DNA from: Dehalococcoidia bacterium | GTDB taxonomy: Bacteria > Chloroflexota > Dehalococcoidia > Bin125 | NCBI GenBank assembly: GCA_022822375.1 | Contig: JAJEBU010000112.1 | Coordinates: 1 to 42,946, forward strand | Length of the DNA stretch: 42,946 nucleotides | Direction of reading: 5' to 3' | Shown here: in pieces, positions 7,570 through 42,578 of the stretch | Layout of the letters: every line of letters begins with the position of its first letter | Position numbering within the stretch: the stretch's first letter is position 1 | Translations under genes and position numbers: made by a program | Notes under the pieces: model-generated | Told to the model about the DNA's origin: nothing | Seen by the model: the letters and a program-made list of their open reading frames with translations, nothing else | Database searches by the model: none

Positions 7570-8292
7570 TCACTGCGACAGCGCAAACTCGCGCGCCAGC
7601 GCCTCCTCGTCGAGGATCGTCACGCGTTGGCGGTTGACATCCACGATGTTGTCACGACGCCAGGTTTGCAGTTGCTTGTTCACGGCCACGCGCGAGGCAC
7701 CGATCATGTTCGCCAGCTCCTGCTGCGACACGCGCAGGCCGATGTCAATCCCCTCATCGGTCGGGACGCCGTGCTCTTCCGCGATGGTCAACAGCCGCCG
7801 CGCCAGGCGTCCTGGCACATCCAGCAGGTAGGCGTCCTGGATCGATTGATTCGTCGCACGAAGCCGCTTGACCAGCACCTCAATGATCGCCTGCTGCGCG
7901 GCGGGATGACGGCTGAGGACCGAGAGGAAGTCGCGGCGGCTCAGGCTGACCATCTCGGTGTGTTCGATGGTCGTGGCCGACGCCGAGCGCGGCACGCTGT
8001 CGAGCAACGACATCTCGCCCAGCAGGTCGTACCGGCGCAGCACGGCGAGCACGACCTCGCGACCGTCCAGGGCCGGGATGAACACTTTGACGGCGCCAGA
8101 CAGGATGATGTACAGCGACGCGCCTTCATCCCCCTCGTGGAAGATGTCGGTGTTCGCGCGGTACTCGACCGGCCGCAGTTTGGTGGCCAGCTCCTTCAGC
8201 ATCACTGGGGGCATGCCGCGGAACAGGGTCACGTTCAACAGCAGGTCGGCGCCCTGCGCGCCATCGGACGGAGATGTTCGTCTGGTAGTCAT
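7570..8292 (-). CDS. Crp/Fnr-family transcriptional regulator
   Basis: This 240-aa regulator has an N-terminal cyclic-nucleotide-binding-type beta-roll (about residues 20-140, including IFHEGDEGASLYIILSGAVK and YDLLGEMSLLD) and a C-terminal Crp-type winged helix (about 165-235, with VSQQELANMIGASRVAVNKQ as the recognition region). There is no cluster of cysteines like that of FNR, so oxygen sensing by an Fe-S cluster is unlikely. The effector may be a cyclic nucleotide or another ligand. The ATG at 8292 follows GGAG by 8 nt; an ORF continuing to 8592 overlaps the divergent gene and is rejected. It heads the run of RraA-family and MFS genes and diverges from the crotonase gene, so it may control both. 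Confidence 0.9.
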   Translation of the reverse strand: MTTRRTSPSDGAQGADLLLNVTLFRGMPPVMLKELATKLRPVEYRANTDIFHEGDEGASLYIILSGAVKVFIPALDGREVVLAVLRRYDLLGEMSLLDSVPRSASATTIEHTEMVSLSRRDFLSVLSRHPAAQQAIIEVLVKRLRATNQSIQDAYLLDVPGRLARRLLTIAEEHGVPTDEGIDIGLRVSQQELANMIGASRVAVNKQLQTWRRDNIVDVNRQRVTILDEEALAREFALSQ

Positions 8293-9249: not shown

Positions 9250-9712
9250 CGAGACGCCCAGCTCGTTGGCCGAGGCCCGGCTGCCGATCGATCACGCCGC
9301 TCGGCTCTTGGCCGTCGCCGATGGACTGTGCAGCATCGGCGAACTGCGCACCGGCGAGCGTGGCGGACAGTTCTCGATCTTCAACTTCCTCATCCGCTGC
9401 ACGCTGGACGACGAGTACCCCTCGCCCGATGATCGGCCGACGCATGCGCTGCTGATGCAAGCGGGCATCGTCCGACGGCACGGCTGGTACGCATACTTCT
9501 GGCTGCCCGATCACGAGTGCCCTCTGCGCATGGCAATTCCGGCCCCGATCAGCAAGTCGTGGCATTGGCACGACGATGTGGAGGAGATCAGCAAGCGGCT
9601 GGACGGTTCCGACGCGTGGACTCAGGCGGTGGGTGCGAGCGTTGAGGCCCACGTGCAGCGGTTTGCGTCGGCGCTGGAGACAGCAGAGATCGTCAGAGTA
9701 GCGACGGCGTAG
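9230..9712 (+). CDS. Hypothetical protein, 160 aa
   Basis: I do not recognise this family. The predicted protein is soluble, with a Trp/His-rich middle (WYAYFWLPDHE, SWHWHDDVEEISKRL) and an amphipathic C-terminus. There is no signal peptide or transmembrane segment. The ATG at 9230 lies inside the last codons of the crotonase gene, so translation is probably coupled, and codon use and GC content match its neighbours. Its 3' end overlaps the convergent CoA-transferase gene by 20 bp (9693-9712). The context suggests a role linked to the crotonase enzyme, but no function can be assigned. Confidence 0.65.
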   Translation: MTSTASNETPSSLAEARLPIDHAARLLAVADGLCSIGELRTGERGGQFSIFNFLIRCTLDDEYPSPDDRPTHALLMQAGIVRRHGWYAYFWLPDHECPLRMAIPAPISKSWHWHDDVEEISKRLDGSDAWTQAVGASVEAHVQRFASALETAEIVRVATA

Positions 9713-10991
9713 CGGGGAACTCGGAGGCCGGCGACGTATTGGCCGGCCGGTCGGCGATCACGCCTTCGGCGGCCAACGCATCCTGTTCCGTGCGCGACAG
9801 ACCCAGCAGACCGCCGAGAATTTCCTCGTTGTGCGCACCGAAATCGGGCGCCGGCGCGACAACGCACGGGCCGGCGCCGTCGGCGCGCCAGAGCCAGCCG
9901 TGCACTTGCCAGATGCCCACTTCGGGGTGCCGCAGCGGCTCATAGAAGCCGCGCGCCTTCAGATGCGGCTCGTGCATCATCTCGAGCATCTTCCAGACAG
10001 GCGACGACGGCACACGCTCGGCATGCAGGGCGGCGAAGATGTCGGTCTTCGAGTGCTCGCTCGTCCAGCTGCCGACGAGCTCATCGAGTTCGGCGCGATG
10101 CTCCCAGCGGAGGATCTGATCGGAGAAATCGTCGCGCTCGGCCCAATCGGGCGACCCCATGGCCCGCTTGAGCCCCGCCCACTCGGCGTCCGAGCGGACG
10201 CAGATGGCGATCCAATCGTCGCCGTCATCAGCGCCGGCGCAGCGGTAGACATTGTGCGGCGCCATCCAGTCGTGATCGGTGCCCATGTGTTCGGGCAGGC
10301 GGCGGTTCATCGACCAGTCCATGTAGAACTCGCCCAGCAAGGTCGACATCACCTCTCGCTGGGCGAGATCGATGTACTGTCCCTGACCGGTCCGCTGGCG
10401 GTGAATCAACGCCGTCGAGACTGCGGCCGAGGCGGCGATGCCGGCGATCGGGTCGCCGTATGAGATCCCGCTCTTGTACGGCACGCCGTCGTCGCCGTAG
10501 CCGCTCGTTGACGTCATCCCGCTCATCATCTCGATGATCGGTCCGTAGCCGACGGCATCCTTCTCGGGTCCCGTTTTGCCAAAGCCGGCCATGCCGACCA
10601 CGATGATGTCCTCGCGCTGCTCGCGCAGCCACTCATAGGTCAGACCCAGGTTGTCCATCACGTCGGTGCGGTAGTTCTCGATCACCACATCGCAGTGCGG
10701 CAGCAGCTGCGCGAAGACGGATCGTCCCGAGTCCGACGCGAGGTCGAGCGAGAGCGACCTCTTGTTGCGGCTGTACTCGTGGAAGTAGAAGTTGGTGTTC
10801 CACCAGCGCTCGCCGGGCGCGACGGGCGGCGGAATCAGCGTACGGATGTTGTCCCAGGCGCGGGGCGACTCGATCTTAATCACGTCGGCACCCAGGTCTG
10901 CGAGGATCTTGGCGGCGTATGGACCAGCCCAGATCATCGTCAGGTCTGCGACGCGCACGCCGCTCAGTGGACGGCCGGGGTCGAAGGTCAT
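9693..10991 (-). CDS. Class III (CaiB/BaiF) CoA-transferase, catalytic-type subunit
   Basis: This 432-aa protein is a class III CoA-transferase, a family that moves CoA between carboxylic acids through an aspartyl anhydride. The N-terminal Rossmann strand GVRVADLTMIWAGPYAAKIL and GADVIKIE are typical. The catalytic Asp is present as Asp180 in SYGDPIAG, aligned without gaps to the distal TGQGQYID motif and matching Asp169 of formyl-CoA transferase (ALGDS). It starts four bases before the end of the upstream minus-strand gene (ATGA overlap). That partner lacks the Asp, so the two are likely subunits of one heteromer. The donor and acceptor acids are unknown. Confidence 0.92.
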   Translation of the reverse strand: MTFDPGRPLSGVRVADLTMIWAGPYAAKILADLGADVIKIESPRAWDNIRTLIPPPVAPGERWWNTNFYFHEYSRNKRSLSLDLASDSGRSVFAQLLPHCDVVIENYRTDVMDNLGLTYEWLREQREDIIVVGMAGFGKTGPEKDAVGYGPIIEMMSGMTSTSGYGDDGVPYKSGISYGDPIAGIAASAAVSTALIHRQRTGQGQYIDLAQREVMSTLLGEFYMDWSMNRRLPEHMGTDHDWMAPHNVYRCAGADDGDDWIAICVRSDAEWAGLKRAMGSPDWAERDDFSDQILRWEHRAELDELVGSWTSEHSKTDIFAALHAERVPSSPVWKMLEMMHEPHLKARGFYEPLRHPEVGIWQVHGWLWRADGAGPCVVAPAPDFGAHNEEILGGLLGLSRTEQDALAAEGVIADRPANTSPASEFPATPSLL

Positions 10992-12202
10992 ATCGCGTCC
11001 AGTTCTCGCAGACGGACGAGGTCTTCGCGCTCGTAGCCGAGCTCACCGTGGATGACGTCCACGTTGTGCTGGCCGAGCTTCGGCGCGGCGCCCATCTTCC
11101 ACTCGTGCGCGCTGCTCAGCCAGAGGCGGCCTGGATAGGTCAGGCTGCCTGCCGCTGCATCGTCGCGATCGGCGAAGAAATCGCGGCTGCGCAGATGCTC
11201 AGAATTGGCCAGGTCCTCGAACGTGGCGACGAAACCGAAGGGCACGCGATTCGCAATGCCAAGCTCGAGCAGATCATCGCGGGTCTGCCCGATGAACCAG
11301 CCGTATAGGATCGCCATCAACTCGTCGTTGTTCGACAGGCGCTGGCCGGCGTCCGCGAATCGATCTTCCTGCAGCTCTGGCAAGCCCACGGCTTGCGCGA
11401 AGGGCGGATAGTTGCGCGGCAGCAGGCAGACGCCGCCATAGCCGTCCGCCAGTTCGTAGAGTCCCCAGGTGGCGTGCAGATTGTTGCCCGATCGCTGCGA
11501 TTCAATACCCAGCTGCGACGCCCGCGTGTGGTACGCCTCGGCCATGCCCGCGTATGTCTCCTGGACCGAGAGGTCGATGTACGACCCTTGTCCGTGCATG
11601 ATCGCCCCGAAGTACGCGCTCGACACGGCGGAGAAGGCGTTCAAGCCGGCTTGGTACGACGGCTGTGAGCCTCCGTTCTTCAGCGGCTGACGATCCGGAT
11701 GGCCCGTCAGCCACATCTGTCCGCTGGCGGCATAGAGGGTCAGTTCCGTCGCAGGCAGGTCGGCGTTCGGGCCGGTCTGGCCGAACGGGGTGATCGAGAT
11801 CATGACCAGCGACGAGTTGTCTGCCGACAGCGCGGCGTAATCCAGGTCGCGTTCGGCCAGATAGCCGGGCGGGAAGGACTCGATCACGATCTCGGCCGAT
11901 TGCGCCAGGTCGCGCAGAATCTCTCGGCCGTCGGAGGTGTCGAGATTGAGCGTGACGGAGCGCTTGTCGCCGTTGAGGTACAAGAACAGGCCTGAGGTCT
12001 CGTCGTCCGGCTGGTCGTTGGGCCAGGGTCCGAACGCACGCGAGGGATCACCGCTGGTTCGCTCGACCTTGATCACATCCGCGCCGAGCGCGGCCAGCCA
12101 GCGCCCCGCATAGGGTCCTGAAATGCCCTCGGCCAGCTCCAAGACACGCACGCCGTCGTATGGGCGTGACGCGTCGGGCGGGGAATGGTCTGTGCTGCTC
12201 AC
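10988..12202 (-). CDS. Class III (CaiB/BaiF) CoA-transferase, subunit lacking catalytic Asp
   Basis: This 404-aa class III CoA-transferase homologue has GVRVLELAEGISGPYAGRWL and GADVIKVE at the N-terminus and GQGSYIDLS in the middle. Ungapped alignment to its partner (25 residues from the shared Gly to the YID motif) places Ser182 (PSYQAG) where the catalytic Asp should be. In benzylsuccinate CoA-transferase, BbsE similarly lacks the residue that BbsF supplies, so a structural or substrate-binding role is likely. It starts with GTG at 12202. There is no Shine-Dalgarno sequence, but TAGACT lies 6 nt upstream, suggesting a leaderless mRNA. The stop overlaps the catalytic partner's start as ATGA. 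Confidence 0.9.
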   Translation of the reverse strand: MSSTDHSPPDASRPYDGVRVLELAEGISGPYAGRWLAALGADVIKVERTSGDPSRAFGPWPNDQPDDETSGLFLYLNGDKRSVTLNLDTSDGREILRDLAQSAEIVIESFPPGYLAERDLDYAALSADNSSLVMISITPFGQTGPNADLPATELTLYAASGQMWLTGHPDRQPLKNGGSQPSYQAGLNAFSAVSSAYFGAIMHGQGSYIDLSVQETYAGMAEAYHTRASQLGIESQRSGNNLHATWGLYELADGYGGVCLLPRNYPPFAQAVGLPELQEDRFADAGQRLSNNDELMAILYGWFIGQTRDDLLELGIANRVPFGFVATFEDLANSEHLRSRDFFADRDDAAAGSLTYPGRLWLSSAHEWKMGAAPKLGQHNVDVIHGELGYEREDLVRLRELDAI

Positions 12203-12249
12203 GCAGGCAGTCTATGAGCAGCCGCGACTGCGTTCTAGACTTGTGGTGC
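12203..12249. promoter_or_regulatory. Compact divergent promoter/operator of the two CoA-transferase pairs
   Basis: Only 47 bp separate two divergent start codons. On the minus strand TAGACT (12214-12209) lies 6 nt before the GTG at 12202. On the plus strand TAGACT (12236-12241) lies 8 nt before the ATG at 12250. Between them, GCAGCCGCGACTGC (12218-12231) is a palindrome with one mismatched pair, and its centre falls within a base of the midpoint of the two hexamers. A single dimeric regulator bound there could control both pairs. No Shine-Dalgarno sequence is seen on either side. Confidence 0.55.
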
Positions 12250-13500
12250 ATGTCCACGTCCACAGACCCGGCTGCCGACACCGATGCCGACATCCTGGGC
12301 CCACCGTTGCTGGAGGGCGTGCGCGTCGTCGAGCTCGCTGAAGAGATCGCTGGCCCGTTCGCGGCCAAGCTGCTCGCCGACGCCGGCGCGGACACGATCA
12401 AGATCGAACCGCCGGGCGGCGACGCTGCGCGCCGCGCAGCACCCTTTGCCGAACCGTCGCCGCACCGCGAGACATCCACCACCTGGCTTGCCTACAACAC
12501 ATCCAAGCGAAGCGTCGTGCTGGACCTCGAATCGGCCGCGGGGCGGCGCATCCTGCAGCGCCTGTTGGCGGACGCGGATGTGCTGGTCACCGATCGCACG
12601 CCGAGCCAGCTCGCGCCGCTCGATCTGCTGCCTGAGCACTTGCGCGAGCGATATCCGCATCTGATCATCGCCGCGGTCACGCCCTTCGGACTATTGGGCA
12701 GCGCGGCGGATTGGCCATCGACCGCGCTGACCCGCGCGCATGCGTCCGGCTCCGCGGCCGGCGTGCGACGCAATCTCGGCGCGGACAGCGGCGCGCCACT
12801 GATGGCCGGCGCTCACGTCCACGAAGCCGACGGCGGTACCGCTTTGGCGCTCGCGATCTGGGCCGCGTTGATTGCCCGTGAGCGGTTCGGACATGGACAG
12901 ATCGTCGATGTCGCATCGACCGACGCGATGATGAACATGGATCGCGTCGACATTTCCATCGCGCACAACGATGGCGGGCCGCCGGCCCGGCCGCCGTCGC
13001 GCGGCGGCAGCGCCTTCGGCGGACGTCTGGAGTGCGCCGACGGGCATCTGATCGCCGTCACGCCGCAGGCGCATCAGTGGGCCGGGCTGATCAAGGCGAT
13101 GGGCGAGCCCAGCTGGGCGTTCGACGACAACGGCAACCTGATCGACCGTCTCTCGCTGGGCGAGGAGGCGGGCATTGCCATCGAGCGGTGGGCCGCCGCG
13201 CGAACGCGTGACGAGGTCTTCCGCGCGTTGCAGTCTCACAGCGCGCCAGCCGGACCGGTGCTGCGACCGTCGGAGGTGCTGGACTCGGAACAAGAGCGGG
13301 TGCGCGAGTTCTTTGAGACGCTGGGGCACCCCGTCGCTCCAAGCGGGCGATACCCGCAGTTTGCCGCCCACTGGACAGCGGCATCGCGCGCCAAGCGGAG
13401 CGCCGCGCCGTTGCTCGGATCAGCATCGTCCGAGGCGGCGAGCCCACATCTCGCTCCCTGGACCCCCGTCCAGGCCAGACGAGCAGGAGTGACCGGATGA
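12250..13500 (+). CDS. Class III (CaiB/BaiF) CoA-transferase, subunit with Glu at the catalytic position
   Basis: This 416-aa homologue shares the LxEGVRVVELAEEIAGPFAAK N-terminal subtype with the minus-strand Asp-less subunit rather than with the Asp-bearing ones. Ungapped alignment puts Glu192 (HVHEADGG) at the catalytic Asp position, with Asp194 two residues later. Glu could in theory form an anhydride, but the subtype and gene order suggest a non-catalytic partner. The ATG at 12250 is preceded by TAGACT 8 nt upstream and no clear Shine-Dalgarno sequence; an in-frame ATG at 12214 would leave no room for a promoter. The stop overlaps the next start as ATGA, so the two are probably co-translated subunits. 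Confidence 0.88.
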   Translation: MSTSTDPAADTDADILGPPLLEGVRVVELAEEIAGPFAAKLLADAGADTIKIEPPGGDAARRAAPFAEPSPHRETSTTWLAYNTSKRSVVLDLESAAGRRILQRLLADADVLVTDRTPSQLAPLDLLPEHLRERYPHLIIAAVTPFGLLGSAADWPSTALTRAHASGSAAGVRRNLGADSGAPLMAGAHVHEADGGTALALAIWAALIARERFGHGQIVDVASTDAMMNMDRVDISIAHNDGGPPARPPSRGGSAFGGRLECADGHLIAVTPQAHQWAGLIKAMGEPSWAFDDNGNLIDRLSLGEEAGIAIERWAAARTRDEVFRALQSHSAPAGPVLRPSEVLDSEQERVREFFETLGHPVAPSGRYPQFAAHWTAASRAKRSAAPLLGSASSEAASPHLAPWTPVQARRAGVTG

Positions 13501-14825
13501 CCACGAACATCGGGACCAACGGTGCAAACGGCACGAATGGACACGGCGATGGTCTGCTGGCAGCCGCGCAGCGATCCGGGCCGTTGTCGGGCAAGCGAAT
13601 CATCGACTTCACCTGGGCCTGGGCCGGACCGTACGGGGCGATGCAGCTGGCCTTGCTCGGCGCGGAGCTGATCAAGGTGGAATCAGCCACGCGCATTGAT
13701 CACTCTCGCCAACGATCGCTCGCGATGGGATCGTTCGCGGGCGGTGTCAACCAGGCGCCGATGTTCAACGAGGTCAACATCAACAAGCACTCGATCCAGC
13801 TCAACCTCAAGACCGAAGGCGCCAAGCAGGTCATTCGAGACCTCGCACAGACCGCTGACGGCGCGATCGACAACTTCCGGCCGGGCACGCTGCAGAAGCT
13901 GGGCCTGGGCTACGAGGATCTGTCCCTGGTCAACCCGGACATCGTCATGATTTCCGCCTCAGCGCTGGGCGGGACGGGTCCCGAGCGGAACTACACGGGC
14001 TACGCGCCGACGTTTGCCGCGCTCAGCGGTCTGTCCTACCTCTCGGGCGAGCCCGAGGAACCGCCGGTGATGATGGGTGGCTCGATCGACCTGCGCGCCG
14101 GCACCGCCGCGGCATTGGCGATGCTCGCCGGCTTCCATTACCGCGAGCGCACAGGACGCGGACAGTTCATTGACGCCTCCTCCTCCGAGGCGATTGGCAT
14201 GCACATCGCCGAAGAGTTCCTCCACGTCGACATGCTCGGCCGCGACGGCGACCGACTCGGCAACGGTCATCGCGCCTACGCGCCGCACGATGTCTTCCGC
14301 TGCGCGTCCATGCGTGCGCCCAACGCCTACTCCGACGACCACAAGGGCGCACGTTCGGGCTGGATCGCCATCGCCTGCCGCTCGGATGCCGAGTGGGAGG
14401 CGCTCTGCTCGGCCAGCGGGCTCGACCATCTGCGATCCGACGCTCGATTCCGAACCGGTCTCAAACGCTGGAAGCACCGAGCCGAGCTGAAACCGATGAT
14501 TGAGGCGTGGACATCTGAGCAATCCGCCGTCGAGACGGCGGACATGCTGCGTACCGCAGGCGTCCCTGCGGCCGCCTCCGTCTGGGGTAGCGACATTCAC
14601 CATTCCGAGAACTTCCAGGCTCGCGGCGGCGCGGTGTCGGTGCGGCCGCCCGAAACGCATCTGCGCCAGGTACTGCCGCCGCCCTGGAAGCTGTCCGAGA
14701 CTCCAGCCGAGATCGTCTCGCCAGCGCCGCGCATGGGCGAGGACACGACCTACGTCCTGAGCCGCATGTTGGGCTATGACGAGGCGCGGATCGATGCTCT
14801 CGCGCGAGAGGGCGCGCTGGAATAA
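13497..14825 (+). CDS. Class III (CaiB/BaiF) CoA-transferase, catalytic-type subunit
   Basis: This 442-aa class III CoA-transferase begins with a low-complexity Asn/Gly/Thr tail, then RIIDFTWAWAGPYGAMQ and GAELIKVE. The catalytic Asp is Asp198 in GGSIDLRAG, in the same register as Asp180 of the minus-strand catalytic-type copy. Both share the WAGPY element, which marks them as the same subtype. AGGAG precedes the start, and the ATG overlaps the stop of the preceding Glu-bearing subunit. The pair mirrors the minus-strand pair, so an inverted duplication of a two-gene module followed by divergence is likely. It may accept a different acid from the minus-strand enzyme. Confidence 0.92.
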   Translation: MTTNIGTNGANGTNGHGDGLLAAAQRSGPLSGKRIIDFTWAWAGPYGAMQLALLGAELIKVESATRIDHSRQRSLAMGSFAGGVNQAPMFNEVNINKHSIQLNLKTEGAKQVIRDLAQTADGAIDNFRPGTLQKLGLGYEDLSLVNPDIVMISASALGGTGPERNYTGYAPTFAALSGLSYLSGEPEEPPVMMGGSIDLRAGTAAALAMLAGFHYRERTGRGQFIDASSSEAIGMHIAEEFLHVDMLGRDGDRLGNGHRAYAPHDVFRCASMRAPNAYSDDHKGARSGWIAIACRSDAEWEALCSASGLDHLRSDARFRTGLKRWKHRAELKPMIEAWTSEQSAVETADMLRTAGVPAAASVWGSDIHHSENFQARGGAVSVRPPETHLRQVLPPPWKLSETPAEIVSPAPRMGEDTTYVLSRMLGYDEARIDALAREGALE

Positions 14826-16530: not shown

Positions 16531-17984
16531 AGACTCCGACGGCGCTGGTGCTGGAGCTGATTGAGGCCATTGGCGAAGATGCCGTGGTGTGGCATGACGA
16601 GGACCTGCTCGTCTACGAGTACGACGGCACGATCGATCGCGGCAATCCCGATGTGATCGCTCTGCCTGCGGACACCGATGACGTGTCCGCCCTGATTCGA
16701 ATTGCTAACAAGCACGGCGCGTCGGTCACGCCCCGCGGCGCGGGTACCGGCCTCAGCGGCGGAGCGCTCGCGGCCAAGGGCGGCGTGATCATCGGCATGA
16801 ACCGAATGCGGCGAATCCTCAGCGTCGATGCGGAGAACAAGACGGCGCTGGTGCAGCCCGGCGTCGTGAATCTCGACTTGGGTTTGGAGGCCGAACGGCA
16901 CGGCCTGGCCTACGCGCCCGATCCCAGCTCACAGCGCGCCTGCACGATCGGCGGCAACATCGCCGAGAATGCGGGCGGACCGCACACGCTCGCGTGGGGC
17001 ACGACGACCAACCATGTGCTGGCCGTTGAGCTCGTCACCGCCGATGGTGAGGTGCAGTGGATCGGCCACGACACTCGCGACGAGCCTGGCTATGACCTGG
17101 TCGGTTGCGTGGTCGGCTCAGAAGGCACGGTCGGGATCGTGACACAGGCGCTGGTCCGGCTCGTGCCGCGTCCGTCGGCGGTGCGCACCATGCTCGCTGT
17201 CTACGACAGCGTCCGCGATGCGTCCAATGCGGTCTCCGCGGTGGTGGCGTCTGGCATCGTTCCGGCGGCGCTGGAGATGATTGACAAGATGACCATCGCG
17301 GCGGTTGAACCTGTCCTCAACACCGGCTTCCCACTAGACGCCGAGGCCGTGCTACTCGTGGAGGTCGACGGACCCGAGTCGCAAGTCGAGGCTGAAGGCG
17401 CGCGCGTCGAGAGCATTCTGCGTCGATTCGAGCCCCGCGAGGTGCGTTCCGCGACCGATCATGAGGAGCGCGAGCACCTGTGGGCGGGCCGCAAGGGCGC
17501 GATCGGCGCGCTCGGCCAGATCATGCCCAACTACTACCTGCTCGACGGCGTCGTCCCGCGCACCAAGCTGCCCGATGTGCTCGATGCCGTCTACGAGATT
17601 GCCGAGCGCTACCGGTTGCCGGTCGCCAACATGTTCCACGCCGGCGACGGCAACCTGCATCCCTGCCTGCTCTTCGACGAGCGTGAACCGGGCGCGACCG
17701 CGCGCGTGCTGGACGCGGGCGGCGAGATCATGCGCGTCTGCGTCGACGCCGGCGGAGCAATCACGGGCGAGCACGGCGTGGGCCTGGAGAAGCGGGACTA
17801 CCTGCCCTGGATCTTCTCCGAGGCCGACATGGATGCGATGAAATCGCTGCGCGCCGCGTTTGGGCCGACGGAGAACTTCAACCCGTGCAAGATCTTCCCG
17901 GCCGGTCACGGTTGCGGCGAGGCCGGCCACCAGCACCACGCGCAGCAGCAGATCGCCAAGTTCGGCCCCAAAGCGTTCGTATGA
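16527..17984 (+). CDS. glcD: FAD-linked oxidase subunit GlcD
   Basis: This 485-aa flavoprotein has an N-terminal PCMH-type FAD-binding domain (PRGAGTGLSGGALAAKGG and CTIGGNIAENAGG are the pyrophosphate-binding loops) and a C-terminal FAD-oxidase domain ending with HAGDGNLHPCLL and TGEHGVGLEKRDYLP, whose His residues bind the 2-hydroxy acid. GlcD is the catalytic subunit that oxidises glycolate or (R)-lactate to the 2-oxo acid. It is followed by glcE and glcF, giving the complete three-subunit enzyme. The ATG at 16527 overlaps the hydrolase stop (ATGA), so the longer frame from 16494 is unnecessary. The substrate could be another 2-hydroxy acid. Confidence 0.92.
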   Translation: MKTPTALVLELIEAIGEDAVVWHDEDLLVYEYDGTIDRGNPDVIALPADTDDVSALIRIANKHGASVTPRGAGTGLSGGALAAKGGVIIGMNRMRRILSVDAENKTALVQPGVVNLDLGLEAERHGLAYAPDPSSQRACTIGGNIAENAGGPHTLAWGTTTNHVLAVELVTADGEVQWIGHDTRDEPGYDLVGCVVGSEGTVGIVTQALVRLVPRPSAVRTMLAVYDSVRDASNAVSAVVASGIVPAALEMIDKMTIAAVEPVLNTGFPLDAEAVLLVEVDGPESQVEAEGARVESILRRFEPREVRSATDHEEREHLWAGRKGAIGALGQIMPNYYLLDGVVPRTKLPDVLDAVYEIAERYRLPVANMFHAGDGNLHPCLLFDEREPGATARVLDAGGEIMRVCVDAGGAITGEHGVGLEKRDYLPWIFSEADMDAMKSLRAAFGPTENFNPCKIFPAGHGCGEAGHQHHAQQQIAKFGPKAFV

Positions 17985-19297
17985 GCGCATCCGACGCCGC
18001 ATCACCAGGCCAGCCGCCGCCCTTCGAGGGTCTCGACACGATCTCCGAACCAGTTCGACTGGCCCGCTACGCCGTCGACGATTCATTGCCGACCAGCGCC
18101 GTGCTCGCGACGGGCATCTCGGATGTCGAGCGGGCGATGGCCGACGCTTCGGCCGCTGGACTGGCGGTCATTCCCCACGGCGGACGCACCATGCAATGCC
18201 TCGGCATGCCGCCGCAGCGGTACGACACCGCGCTCGATCTCTCGCGCTTGAATCGCGTGGTGGACTATGAGCCTGAGGACTTCACCATCACGGTTCAGGC
18301 GGGCATGACGCTCTCCACGTTGCAGCAGCAGCTGGCGATCAACGGGCAGCTCTTGCCGCTCGACCATCCGCACTTCGAGCAAGCCACGCTGGGCGGTCTG
18401 GCCGCTGTCGGACGGGGCGGTCTGCGGCGCAACTCGTTCGGCGGTCCGCGCGACTGGCTGATCGGCATGCGCATGGTTCAGGCCGACGGCACGGCGATCA
18501 AGGCTGGCGGGAAGGTCGTCAAGAACGTCAGCGGCTATGACCTGGCCAAGCTCTTCTCGGGTTCGTTGGGCACGCTGGGCATCATCGTCGAGCTCACGTT
18601 CAAGCTCCGGCCGCAACCTGCCAGCGACCAGATCATCGCCATCGGCGCGCCCACGCTCGACGACGCACAGCGGGCGGCGCGAGCCGCCGCCAACGCCGCC
18701 CCGTTTCTCAACGGCTGCATCGCGCTCTCGGCCGATGCCGCGGCAGAAGCTCGCGCGCTCGGCGCCCGACTGCTGCAGGACGAGCCGACGATCGTGCTCC
18801 GCGCCAACGGCCTGGAGTCGGCAGCGACGGAAGTGCTGTCGCATGCGCTGTCCGCTATTCGTGAGGTCGGCGTGGACCGCCCGGAGCGCCGCACGAGCGA
18901 GATCGTCGAGACCTGGCAGGCGATCGCCGATCTCGAATTGCAGACCCCGAACGAGCACGTCCGCCTGCGGCTGGGTCTACCGCCCGCCAAACTCGTGCAG
19001 GCGCAGGTCTTGCTTGACGGGCATCTGAACAATCCGGCGCAGTGGATCATCGCTGCGGACTCAGGGCTGCTCTTCGTCTCGACACCGCGCGTAGACGCCG
19101 ACACGATTGCCCGGTTGCGGCGCGAGCTTGGTCCGCTGCGGGGACGGCTGACCATTGAGTCCGCGCCGCCGGAGCTGAAGTCGTCAGTCGACATCTGGGG
19201 GCCGGCGGGCGCCGGGGCGCGGTTGATGCACAACATCAAGGCGCAGTTCGACCCGCAAACCGCGCTCAATCCCGGCCGGTTTGTCGACGGCATTTAG
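17981..19297 (+). CDS. glcE: FAD-binding oxidase subunit GlcE
   Basis: This 438-aa protein has only the FAD-binding half of the GlcD family: IPHGGRTMQCLG, ATLGGLAAVGRGGLRRNSFG, KVVKNVSGYDLAKLFSGSLG and a degenerate C-terminus. That matches GlcE, the second flavin-type subunit of glycolate oxidase. The ATG at 17981 overlaps the glcD stop as ATGA, so a 1:1 translation ratio with GlcD is likely; the frame running upstream to 17885 is a shadow of glcD. glcF begins 9 bp after its stop. The C-terminal NPGRFVDGI is a typical family ending. Confidence 0.9.
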   Translation: MSASDAASPGQPPPFEGLDTISEPVRLARYAVDDSLPTSAVLATGISDVERAMADASAAGLAVIPHGGRTMQCLGMPPQRYDTALDLSRLNRVVDYEPEDFTITVQAGMTLSTLQQQLAINGQLLPLDHPHFEQATLGGLAAVGRGGLRRNSFGGPRDWLIGMRMVQADGTAIKAGGKVVKNVSGYDLAKLFSGSLGTLGIIVELTFKLRPQPASDQIIAIGAPTLDDAQRAARAAANAAPFLNGCIALSADAAAEARALGARLLQDEPTIVLRANGLESAATEVLSHALSAIREVGVDRPERRTSEIVETWQAIADLELQTPNEHVRLRLGLPPAKLVQAQVLLDGHLNNPAQWIIAADSGLLFVSTPRVDADTIARLRRELGPLRGRLTIESAPPELKSSVDIWGPAGAGARLMHNIKAQFDPQTALNPGRFVDGI

Positions 19298-19306
19298 GCT
19301 GGCACT
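19295..19306 (+). promoter_or_regulatory. TAGGCT hexamer 6 nt before glcF
   Basis: TAGGCT (19295-19300) is placed exactly 6 nt before the glcF ATG, as at other leaderless-looking starts. Its TAG is also the glcE stop codon, so the match may be coincidence. There is no Shine-Dalgarno sequence before glcF, which keeps the idea open. Confidence 0.25.
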
Positions 19307-20659
19307 ATGAGCATCGCGCCGCCTGACTTCGAATCCATCTGGCAGACCGCTGACCGTCCCGACGCCGGCGAGCTCGGGCTGTGCGTCCACTGCGGCTTCT
19401 GCCTGAACGCCTGCCCGACGTATCACGATCTGGGCGTCGAGACCGGCTCACCGCGCGGGCGAATCGCGCTGATGCGCGGACTCGACGACGGCCGGCTGGA
19501 GTGGTCGCCGCGCGTGCAGCAGCACTTTGACCAGTGTCTCCAGTGCCGCGCCTGCGAAACCGCCTGTCCGTCCAAGGTGCCATACGGCCGTCTGATGGAA
19601 GCGACGAGAGCCGAAGCCTTCGCGCAGGACCGCTGGCCGCGCCGCCAACGCATCATCTGGCGGGTGATCATGCGCGGGCTGTTTCCCTATCCGCGACGCA
19701 TGCGCCTGGCCGGCTACGGCTTGAAGCTCTACCAGACGAGCGGCCTGCAATCGCTGGTACGCCGCAGCGGATTGCTCAAGCGTCTGGCGCCAAAGCTGGC
19801 GGAGATCGATGCGCTCTCGCCCAACGCCGATCGCCCCTTCTACTCCAACGCCGAGGCAGCCAGGGTGTCACCGAAGCGAACGCCGCGCGCCCATGCGTCG
19901 CTGGTGACCGGCTGCATGATGCCGTTGGCATATCCCGACACGCACCGCGCGACGGTCAACGTCTTCGCCCGCAACGGAGTCGCGGTCGACGCGCCGTCCG
20001 CGCAGGTCTGCTGCGGTGCGCTCCACGCCCACGGCGGAGACGTCGAGGCGTCCCGAGATCTCGCGAGAGCAAACATCGACGCGTTTACGCCGCTCGGCTC
20101 AGAGCTGCCCGACGCCGTCCTGATCAATGCCGCCGGCTGTGGGTCGCACTTGAAGGAGTACGGGCATCTGCTTAGGAATGATGAGGAGTACGCGGATCGC
20201 GCCGCGGCATTTGCCTCGCGCGTCCGAGACGTGCATGAGTGGTTGGTGGAGATTGGCTTCGAACTACCCATGGGACGAATCGAGCGTCGCGTCACCTATC
20301 AGGACTCGTGCCACCTGTCGCACGCGCAGGGCATCCGCAAGGCGCCTCGAGAGGTCCTGACCAGCATTCCGGGACTTGAGCTCGCCGAGATGCGCACGCC
20401 CGACCGCTGCTGCGGCTCGGCCGGCATCTACTCGGTCGTCCAGAGCGAGATTTCCCAGCGAGTCCTCGCAGAGAAGATGTCGGACGTGCTCGGCACGGGC
20501 GCTGACCAAATCTGCACCGCAAATCCTGGCTGCATGCTGCAGCTGGACGCCGGCATTGCTCGGTTCGACGATGACCAACGCATGATCCCTCGCTCCATCC
20601 ATGCGATCGAACTGCTCGACGAGTCCTATCGTCTCGGCGATCAGGCGCAGACCCGCTGA
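19307..20659 (+). CDS. glcF: Iron-sulfur oxidase subunit GlcF
   Basis: This 450-aa protein has two complete [4Fe-4S] motifs, Cys26/29/32/36 (CVHCGFCLNACP) and Cys77/80/83/87 (CLQCRACETACP). Two CCG domains follow (VCCGALHAHGGD; DSCHLSHAQG with CCGSAGIY), the type that binds a non-cubane cluster in heterodisulfide-reductase-like subunits. GlcF carries electrons from the GlcDE flavins to the membrane quinone pool. The start at 19307 lies 9 bp after glcE without a visible Shine-Dalgarno sequence. The stop codon lies in an 8-bp tandem repeat. With glcD and glcE this completes a membrane-associated 2-hydroxy-acid dehydrogenase. Confidence 0.92.
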   Translation: MSIAPPDFESIWQTADRPDAGELGLCVHCGFCLNACPTYHDLGVETGSPRGRIALMRGLDDGRLEWSPRVQQHFDQCLQCRACETACPSKVPYGRLMEATRAEAFAQDRWPRRQRIIWRVIMRGLFPYPRRMRLAGYGLKLYQTSGLQSLVRRSGLLKRLAPKLAEIDALSPNADRPFYSNAEAARVSPKRTPRAHASLVTGCMMPLAYPDTHRATVNVFARNGVAVDAPSAQVCCGALHAHGGDVEASRDLARANIDAFTPLGSELPDAVLINAAGCGSHLKEYGHLLRNDEEYADRAAAFASRVRDVHEWLVEIGFELPMGRIERRVTYQDSCHLSHAQGIRKAPREVLTSIPGLELAEMRTPDRCCGSAGIYSVVQSEISQRVLAEKMSDVLGTGADQICTANPGCMLQLDAGIARFDDDQRMIPRSIHAIELLDESYRLGDQAQTR

Positions 20660-21588: not shown

Positions 21589-22563
21589 TTAGTCGCGCAA
21601 CTGGTCGGCGTACTGCGCGATGTCGATGTAGCGGTCGGCGACCTGTCGCAGATCGGCTGATGTGCTCTGGCCGAACGCCATTACCTCAACTCGCACGCCC
21701 CGCGCGCCCACGATCTCGACGAGGCGGCGGAAGTCGCCGTCGCCCGAGACGAGCACGATCACGTCCACACGGTCGGACATGGTGAGCACGTCGATGGCCA
21801 GCTCCACATCGAAGTTGGCCTTGACCGATCCGCCGCTGAAGCGCTTCAGCTGTTTGGTTGCGATGCGGTAGCCGTGGTCGAGGAACGGCACGACGAACCG
21901 CTCATTCTCGGTGCGCGCTGACGGATCATCCGAGATCGGCGAGTACGCAATCGCGCGGACGAGCGTGCGTCCGTGCGAGAGGAAGTCAGCGACCTTGCCC
22001 CAGTTGAGGCGCACGCCGGACGCTTCAGCGCCGTAGAGGATGTTGGGCACATCGACGAAGATCGCGAGCCGTGGCAGCACCTCGATCCGGGCCGGCACGG
22101 TGTCATCGCCGCTCTGTCCCAAGAGTGTCTGGGTCAGCAGCTGCTGGGAGGCGGCGAGCTGTTCCAGCGCCGCTCCCTGCTGCTCCAGCAGCGTCGTCTG
22201 ACGCTGCAGCAGGGCCAGCATTTGTTCGACGGGATCAGTTGGCAGTTGGGCCTCGGACTCCGGCTTGGCGCGGCGGGGGTTCGGGCGTCCCGAAGGTCTC
22301 GGTTCCCTGGGCTCCGGCGCCTGGCTGACCGCAGAGGCGTTGGCGGCGCCGTTGCCGCCTCCGCGATTGCGGCCTCGACCGCCTCGCGATCCGCGTCGGG
22401 TCGGCGCTTTGGGCGGCGGCTCGACGAGCGGAGTCGTGGACGGACTTGCGGGCCCACTCGACTGGCTGGGCCGCGACTCGGTGGTTTGTGTGGTCGAAGC
22501 GATGGATGGGGTGTCGGCAGCGGGTTCGCCCTTGGTGGCGGTCCGCCTCAGAAATCTGCTCAT
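21589..22563 (-). CDS. NYN-domain (PIN-like) putative ribonuclease with RGG-rich linker
   Basis: This 324-aa protein has a basic N-terminus, then a disordered Ser/Thr/Pro stretch with an RGG box (RRGSRGGRGRNRGGG), a Gln/Leu-rich heptad region (about residues 120-155, LLQRQTTLLEQQGAALEQL, likely coiled coil) and a C-terminal NYN/LabA-like domain. Acidic motifs typical of PIN-like nucleases are visible in LAIFVDVPNILYGA and VIVLVSGDGDFRRLVE. The likely role is RNA cleavage or RNA quality control. The ATG at 22563 follows a weak GGAA; upstream codons belong to the Mrp gene in another frame. Mrp ends 22 bp upstream, so the two form an operon. Confidence 0.85.
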   Translation of the reverse strand: MSRFLRRTATKGEPAADTPSIASTTQTTESRPSQSSGPASPSTTPLVEPPPKAPTRRGSRGGRGRNRGGGNGAANASAVSQAPEPREPRPSGRPNPRRAKPESEAQLPTDPVEQMLALLQRQTTLLEQQGAALEQLAASQQLLTQTLLGQSGDDTVPARIEVLPRLAIFVDVPNILYGAEASGVRLNWGKVADFLSHGRTLVRAIAYSPISDDPSARTENERFVVPFLDHGYRIATKQLKRFSGGSVKANFDVELAIDVLTMSDRVDVIVLVSGDGDFRRLVEIVGARGVRVEVMAFGQSTSADLRQVADRYIDIAQYADQLRD

Positions 22564-41747: not shown

Positions 41748-42578
41748 ATGGCAGAGAAATCAGGCGCCCTCTTCGTGGTCGCCACGCCGATCGGCAATAT
41801 GGAGGACATCACGCTCAGAGCGCTGCGCGTGCTGGGCGAGGTCGACCTGGTGGCGGCCGAGCATGTGCCGGTCGCCAGGCAGCTGTTGCGCCACTACGAG
41901 ATCGACACCATCGTGGCGCCGTACCACGACCAGGGGTCAGATGCTCGGCGCTTGGTCGAGCGGATGCAGCGCGGCGAATCGATCGCGCTGGTCTCGGACG
42001 CTGGGACGCCCGGTGTCTCCGATCCGGGACGCCGGCTCGTTGCGGCCGCGGCCGCGTCGGAGATCAGCGTCATCCCCATTCCTGGGCCTGCTGCGTCGAT
42101 TGCACTCTGGTCCGTCAGCGGAGCGGAGTCGCCTCGGGTGCAGCTGTATGGATTCCTGCCGCGCAAGTCCGGCGAGCGGCAGCGTGCGCTCGCGGAGATC
42201 GCTGCGGCTGGGCATAGCTCGGTCGTCTTCGAATCGCCACGGCGCGTGCGCGCGACGTTGCAAGAGCTGACGCAGATGCTGCCGGACGCTGAGTTGGTCA
42301 TCGGTCGAGAACTGACCAAGCTGCACGAGCAGATCTGGCGGGGGACGCCCGCAGCGGCGGTTGAGGCCTTCGCCGAACCGCGCGGGGAGTTCACCATTCT
42401 GATCGTCCCAGCTGCCGGCCAGGCGGATGTCTGGTCGGATGCGCAGATTGCGGAGGCGCTCGCCGACGCTGCGGCGCAGGGCGCATCGCGATCCCAGGCG
42501 GCTCGTTATGTCTCTCAGCAGTCCGGCCGGCCGCGACGCGAGATCTACGCACTGTGGCCCTTTGCGTCCGAACGTTGA
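41748..42578 (+). CDS. rsmI: RsmI, 16S rRNA 2'-O-ribose C1402 methyltransferase
   Basis: This 276-aa tetrapyrrole-methylase-fold enzyme methylates C1402 of 16S rRNA at the ribosomal P site. VVATPIGNMEDITLRALRVL, ALVSDAGTPGVSDPG, IPIPGPAASIAL and FYGFLP-like LYGFLPRKSGER are in the correct order, and VFESPRRVRATL follows. The usual AEDTR motif is AEHVPVARQLL here, a notable change near the RNA-binding face. No ribosome binding site is seen; TAGAGT is 7 nt upstream. An imperfect 10-bp repeat separates it from metG. Confidence 0.94.
   Translation: MAEKSGALFVVATPIGNMEDITLRALRVLGEVDLVAAEHVPVARQLLRHYEIDTIVAPYHDQGSDARRLVERMQRGESIALVSDAGTPGVSDPGRRLVAAAAASEISVIPIPGPAASIALWSVSGAESPRVQLYGFLPRKSGERQRALAEIAAAGHSSVVFESPRRVRATLQELTQMLPDAELVIGRELTKLHEQIWRGTPAAAVEAFAEPRGEFTILIVPAAGQADVWSDAQIAEALADAAAQGASRSQAARYVSQQSGRPRREIYALWPFASER

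Follow-up and report, generated by a model that had tools for sequence, protein, structure and literature searches.

Facing TAGACT boxes between divergent class III CoA-transferase operons: probable back-to-back leaderless promoters conserved across a Dehalococcoidia genus

Bacterial TA-led genes, which carry TANNNT some 12 bp ahead of the start codon (counted from the first T) and are devoid of a Shine-Dalgarno motif, have been read as having leaderless promoters, with only TAnnnT being retained in high-GC genomes; in the survey concerned, leaderless genes were reported in 4 of 12 Chloroflexi genomes, at an average of 4.7% (Zheng et al. 2011, PMC3160421). The bidirectional promoters of E. coli and Salmonella described by Warman, Grainger and colleagues have -10 elements that overlap reciprocally, with 7-25 bp separating their start sites (PMC10268837, PMC12825309), and for E. 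coli promoters whose start sites lie 10-23 bp apart, competition is described on strong activation and none at basal activity (PMC12825309). In the M. tuberculosis lysG/lysE region, a divergent gap of 108 bp is described in which -10/-35 motifs overlap and which also has a central inverted repeat and one leaderless start, one of the two genes being the regulator itself (PMC5648196).

The locus analysed here lies in a 42,946-nucleotide stretch of DNA (the window), which corresponds to contig C132 of a metagenome-assembled genome of 2.72 Mb (G000) assigned to Bin125. In the table of a study on the sponge Aplysina aerophoba, bin125 was placed in Chloroflexia (PMC5649159), and "members of Bin125" stand within Dehalococcoidia in a later reclassification (PMC10608941). 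Four genes of the window, all encoding class III CoA-transferases, form two divergent operons. The minus operon consists of a first gene (10988-12202, minus strand), whose best solved match is chain A of PDB entry 9fn0 (BbsEF-like), and a second gene (9693-10991, minus strand), which overlaps the first by 4 bp and matches chain B best. The plus operon repeats this layout, with a first gene (12250-13500, plus strand) whose match to chain A is only moderate (E 4.7e-30), and a second gene (13497-14825, plus strand), again with a 4-bp overlap and chain B as its best match. Both divergent first genes belong to the CoA_transf_3 family (PF02515). The entry 9fn0 is annotated as "Subunit of Benzylsuccinate CoA-transferase", and we take it to be BbsEF; judged by sequence match, each operon would thus resemble the two-subunit class III CoA-transferases of this putative type, with an adjacent pair made up of a chain A-like first gene and a chain B-like second gene. 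An Asp is present in the aligned glycine-rich loop of the second genes and absent from that of the first genes (10988-12202 and 12250-13500). It is presumably the catalytic Asp of class III CoA-transferases, which would be expected in one subunit only, and its absence from the first genes is as expected if one subunit per pair is catalytic. The second-first/first-second arrangement recurs without exception at the 10 named loci examined. Any duplication behind the four genes must be old, as the other three share only 28-32% identity with the minus-side first gene.

The two operons are separated by a 47-bp intergenic gap (12203-12249); in sampled sequence from three genomes of the genus, only 7 of 159 called divergent pairs, the window pair included, have gaps of 47 bp or less. 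The original prediction had described identical hexamers facing each other in this gap, 6 and 8 nt from the start codons, and this proved exact: TAGACT occurs at 12209-12214 on the minus strand, 6 nt before the GTG at 12202, and at 12236-12241 on the plus strand, 8 nt before the ATG at 12250. Counted from the first T of TANNNT, the boxes lie 12 nt (minus) and 14 nt (plus) before the start codons, and no Shine-Dalgarno motif was found between box and start in either divergent first gene, both being features of the TA-led genes (PMC3160421). The two boxes read outward and, 21 bp apart, delimit a 33-bp block (12209-12241). Directly upstream of the minus box lies TGAGC (12215-12219; GCTCA on the minus strand), and directly upstream of the plus box lies CGTTC (12231-12235, plus strand). 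Candidate -35 elements may be proposed as ATGAGC for the plus promoter (12214-12219, plus strand; 16-bp spacer), adjoining the minus box, and as TAGAAC for the minus promoter (12232-12237, minus strand; 17-bp spacer), overlapping the plus box; each matches TTGACA at 3 of 6 positions, and since no clear -35 consensus emerged from 121 leaderless promoters of the genus, these assignments stay weak. An in-frame ATG at 12160 opens a longer reading frame for the plus gene, which overlaps the minus gene and its promoter (12160-12249); automatic annotation may pick this codon, while the conserved plus-gene start is at 12250.

To define the genus-wide context of the boxes, genes were called by a simple script (codon statistics; starts ATG, GTG or TTG), so that individual starts may be wrong, in three samples: (i) 174,344 bases of G000, the window included, from contigs hit incidentally in a search (146 genes), (ii) 699,511 bases of one contig of genome G001 (581 genes), and (iii) 400,000 bases of one contig of genome G010 (338 genes). 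TANNNT was found 6, 7 and 8 nt before in-frame starts 12, 7 and 4 times in G000, against a background of about 1.4 per position at 16-40 nt, 39, 14 and 9 times in G001, and 24, 10 and 3 times in G010, while the reversed control motif TNNNAT was flat before starts, with no peak, in the same three samples. The boxes before starts are, therefore, more than chance matches. Overall, 127 of 1065 sampled genes (about 12%, chance matches included) carry a box at 6-8 nt, a share that differs from the 4.7% average reported for Chloroflexi (PMC3160421). The distance is 6 nt for 76 of these boxes, 7 nt for 33 and 8 nt for 18, distances of 7-8 nt, usual at the CoA-transferase locus, being less common in the genus than 6 nt, a point against reading the boxes there as leaderless -10 elements. 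TAGACT is the commonest version (13 of 127), and 6 of these 13 are those of the CoA-transferase locus in the three genomes. In G001, a Shine-Dalgarno-like motif was seen before 199 of 542 genes without a box (control window: 39 of 542) but before none of 39 box-led genes.

A search of 100 genomes returned matches to the plus-side protein in all 14 other genomes of the genus (g1), at 78-94% identity. Both boxes and their exact 21-bp spacing are shared by every one of the 15 genomes of the genus, and the search for the 33-bp block found it in none of 46 other genomes. The plus-side distance to the start codon is 8 nt in all 15 genomes; on the minus side it is 7 nt to an ATG in 13 and 6 nt to a GTG in 2, the window being among the latter. 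The original prediction of a compact divergent promoter leaving no room for leaders is borne out to this extent: its geometry is that of leaderless genes in the genus and recurs in 15 of 15 congeners. Within the block, 24 of 33 bases are invariant in the 15 genomes, which are related, so that such counts are not independent events; TGAGC and CGTTC are among the invariant bases. By comparison, 8 of 147 third codon positions are invariant over 150 codons of the plus gene in the same genomes, and the best 33-column coding window of this gene has 21 invariant columns.

Taken together, box positions, the genus-wide box statistics, the absence of Shine-Dalgarno motifs from box-led genes, conservation and fixed spacing argue that the TAGACT boxes are probably -10 elements belonging to a back-to-back pair of housekeeping promoters, each serving a leaderless class III CoA-transferase operon. 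The elements would be of the sigma-70 type with leaders of 0-2 nt: from its box, polymerase would initiate at about 12202 on the minus strand or about 12248-12250 on the plus strand, on the start codon or directly beside it, and translation would set in at this 5'-terminal codon with no Shine-Dalgarno motif involved. The footprint of the polymerase extends upstream of the start by some 55 bp. As the boxes lie 21 bp apart, each promoter would have its upstream contacts on the -10 element of the other and one polymerase footprint would cover both, so that the two operons should share, and compete for, a single 33-bp platform, and a dedicated regulator would not be needed. Taken alone, this step of competition and mutual exclusion is somewhat better favoured than not. 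The predicted arrangement is like the bidirectional promoters of E. coli and Salmonella in having two divergent starts with overlapping polymerase sites and competition between polymerases that would need no regulator, but differs in that about 46-48 bp separate the predicted starts and the -10 elements, 21 bp apart, do not overlap (PMC10268837, PMC12825309).

We recognised no published account of such an arrangement in Chloroflexota in searches of the open-licence PMC literature. It is a tentative suggestion, for which the odds are rather against, that the locus represents a regulator-free coupling within 33 bp, in which a single polymerase chooses between paralogous CoA-transferase operons and competition alone sets their ratio, preserved across a genus with near-saturated third codon positions; otherwise the locus is a neat and strongly conserved case of kinds already known and, as a finding on gene regulation, ordinary. 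For an uncultured genus of sponge-associated Chloroflexota, the leaderless signature is of help in locating promoters and start codons without recourse to RNA data, and the small, deeply conserved block offers a direct test bed for polymerase competition between divergent leaderless promoters.

Leaderless promoters of G001 and G010 were compared pairwise. Among 31 pairs, 26 served as controls, the excluded ones being 3 whose upstream stretch lies inside called genes and the 2 of the CoA-transferase locus. Over the 21 bp upstream of the box, the CoA-transferase locus has 18 of 21 positions identical, the highest of 28 intergenic leaderless pairs, and the other 26 pairs range from 5 to 16. The five bases adjoining the -10 element are the most conserved upstream positions of the controls (62-77%), and the invariant TGAGC and CGTTC occupy these same five positions. 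For a pair of typical promoters that overlap, about 12-13 identical positions of 21 would be expected, and in a simple simulation the probability of at least 18 was about 0.01. Some constraint on the central spacer thus seems to exceed what a double promoter would impose, and this part is left without explanation by the two-promoter reading.

This excess bears on the best-surviving alternative, a regulated switch in which a dimeric regulator would sit on a central operator, either the near-palindrome or the whole inverted repeat, and turn both operons on or off together. It had been predicted that a 14-bp near-palindrome lies within one base of the box midpoint, and one is present: GCAGCCGCGACTGC (12218-12231), with 6 of 7 pairs and its centre (12224.5) half a base from the midpoint (12225). 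Besides this central dyad and the slightly raised spacer conservation, a switch is favoured by the retention of the arms GCAG and CTGC in most of the genome rows, and has a precedent in the LysG-bound intergenic region of M. tuberculosis lysG/lysE (PMC5648196). The likeness to that region extends to a short divergent gap, a central inverted repeat and a leaderless start (predicted here), and may extend to an overlap of -10 and -35 motifs, for which the CoA-transferase gap offers weak -35 candidates matching at 3 of 6 positions; the differences are its gap of 108 bp and the regulator encoded by one of its genes, set against a CoA-transferase gap with an unconserved inverted repeat and no regulator gene (PMC5648196). 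Both members of the divergent pair are PF02515 CoA-transferases, neither being a regulator. The palindrome by itself is statistically weak, as a 14-bp palindrome of at least 6 pairs arises in 5.3% of shuffled 47-mers, and one centred near the midpoint in 1.4% of shuffled 21-bp spacers. Moreover, the 6 of 7 pairs are found in the window only, the same columns forming 3-5 of 7 pairs in the 14 congeners; the central bases are variable, a change in one outer arm has no counterpart in the opposite arm, and the invariant inner bases are asymmetric about the dyad of the boxes (TGAGC versus GAACG). Nor is the spacer motif in excess, with 386 matches at up to 3 mismatches in the 15 genomes (locus included) against 448 for the reversed control, although a regulator with a single site would escape such a count. 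On conservation and this motif search, a shared operator at the palindrome is unsupported. A regulated switch is, accordingly, unlikely; the palindrome part of the original prediction, which expected conservation in close relatives, is refuted, its facing boxes being strongly confirmed, and its proposal that one regulator at the palindrome was needed finds no support in view of the uncompensated arms and a motif without excess.

A still less probable alternative sees in the inverted TAGACT hexamers, instead of -10 elements, the half-sites of a transcription factor, the real promoters lying elsewhere. It would account for the exact inverted symmetry of the hexamers and for the near-confinement of exact facing pairs, at 10-36 bp, to the CoA-transferase locus within the genus: AGTCTA-N10..36-TAGACT occurs at one place in 12 of 13 searched genomes of the genus and at two places in the remaining one (G010); outside the genus, it was found at one place in one (G025) of 8 genomes. 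Against half-sites stands the place of TAGACT as the most frequent version of a TANNNT class which, throughout the genus, keeps a distance of 6-8 nt from starts and does not coexist with Shine-Dalgarno motifs, together with the lack of such a motif, and of room for one, at either start. Furthermore, single boxes stand alone in sister genera, TAGACT preceding the plus gene by 8 nt in G017 and the minus gene by 6 nt in G018 and G019; in G015, no such box was found before either CoA-transferase gene, which counts against the two-promoter reading. As for accidental matches in a compact gap, about 5% of shuffled gaps would by themselves contain such a palindrome, and chance holds for the palindrome core only, being already refuted for the boxes by the 24 invariant bases of 33 kept despite near-saturated third codon positions and by the fixed 21-bp spacer.

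With one or two places per genome of the genus, exact facing boxes were rejected as a recurrent genome-wide device. In a looser form (TANNNT on both sides, with open starts), facing boxes occur at 8 places in 1.27 Mb, three of them the CoA-transferase locus, the reversed motif giving none. Among the 159 called divergent pairs, 7 are boxed on both sides, with gaps of 19, 20, 47, 48, 48, 53 and 64 bp, three of these again representing the CoA-transferase locus. A second divergent leaderless pair, on contig C84 of G000 (21787-21850; 1787-1850 of locus L108), has facing TAGACT and TACTCT boxes, about 23-24 bp apart in most congeners and 40 bp apart in the genome of the window. Its boxes are kept in congeners, and its spacer varies in sequence and length; the strong spacer conservation of the CoA-transferase gap is thus not typical of divergent leaderless pairs.

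Several further box arrangements were observed. On contig C84 of G000, a 19-bp divergent gap (7635-7653 of locus L107) between genes that we take to be coaE-like and 3-methyladenine glycosylase-like contains a single box, TAGGCTA, that can be read in either direction and from which both flanking genes could be transcribed leaderless; on the coaE side, most congeners retain a box-like sequence, shared use being seen only in some. In the window, the stop codon TAG of the gene at 17981-19297 doubles as the TA of a -10 box, TAGGCT (19295-19300), for a leaderless gene at 19307, which is preceded at 6 nt by TAGGCT or TAAGCT in 15 of 15 congeners. Finally, a GTAAAC-ACCGAACA-like stretch, common to several congeners, lies upstream of a gene at 41748 of the window and at loci L181, L184, L186, L187, L188 and L190; its occurrence in some congeners without a leaderless box suggests an alternative promoter or operator.
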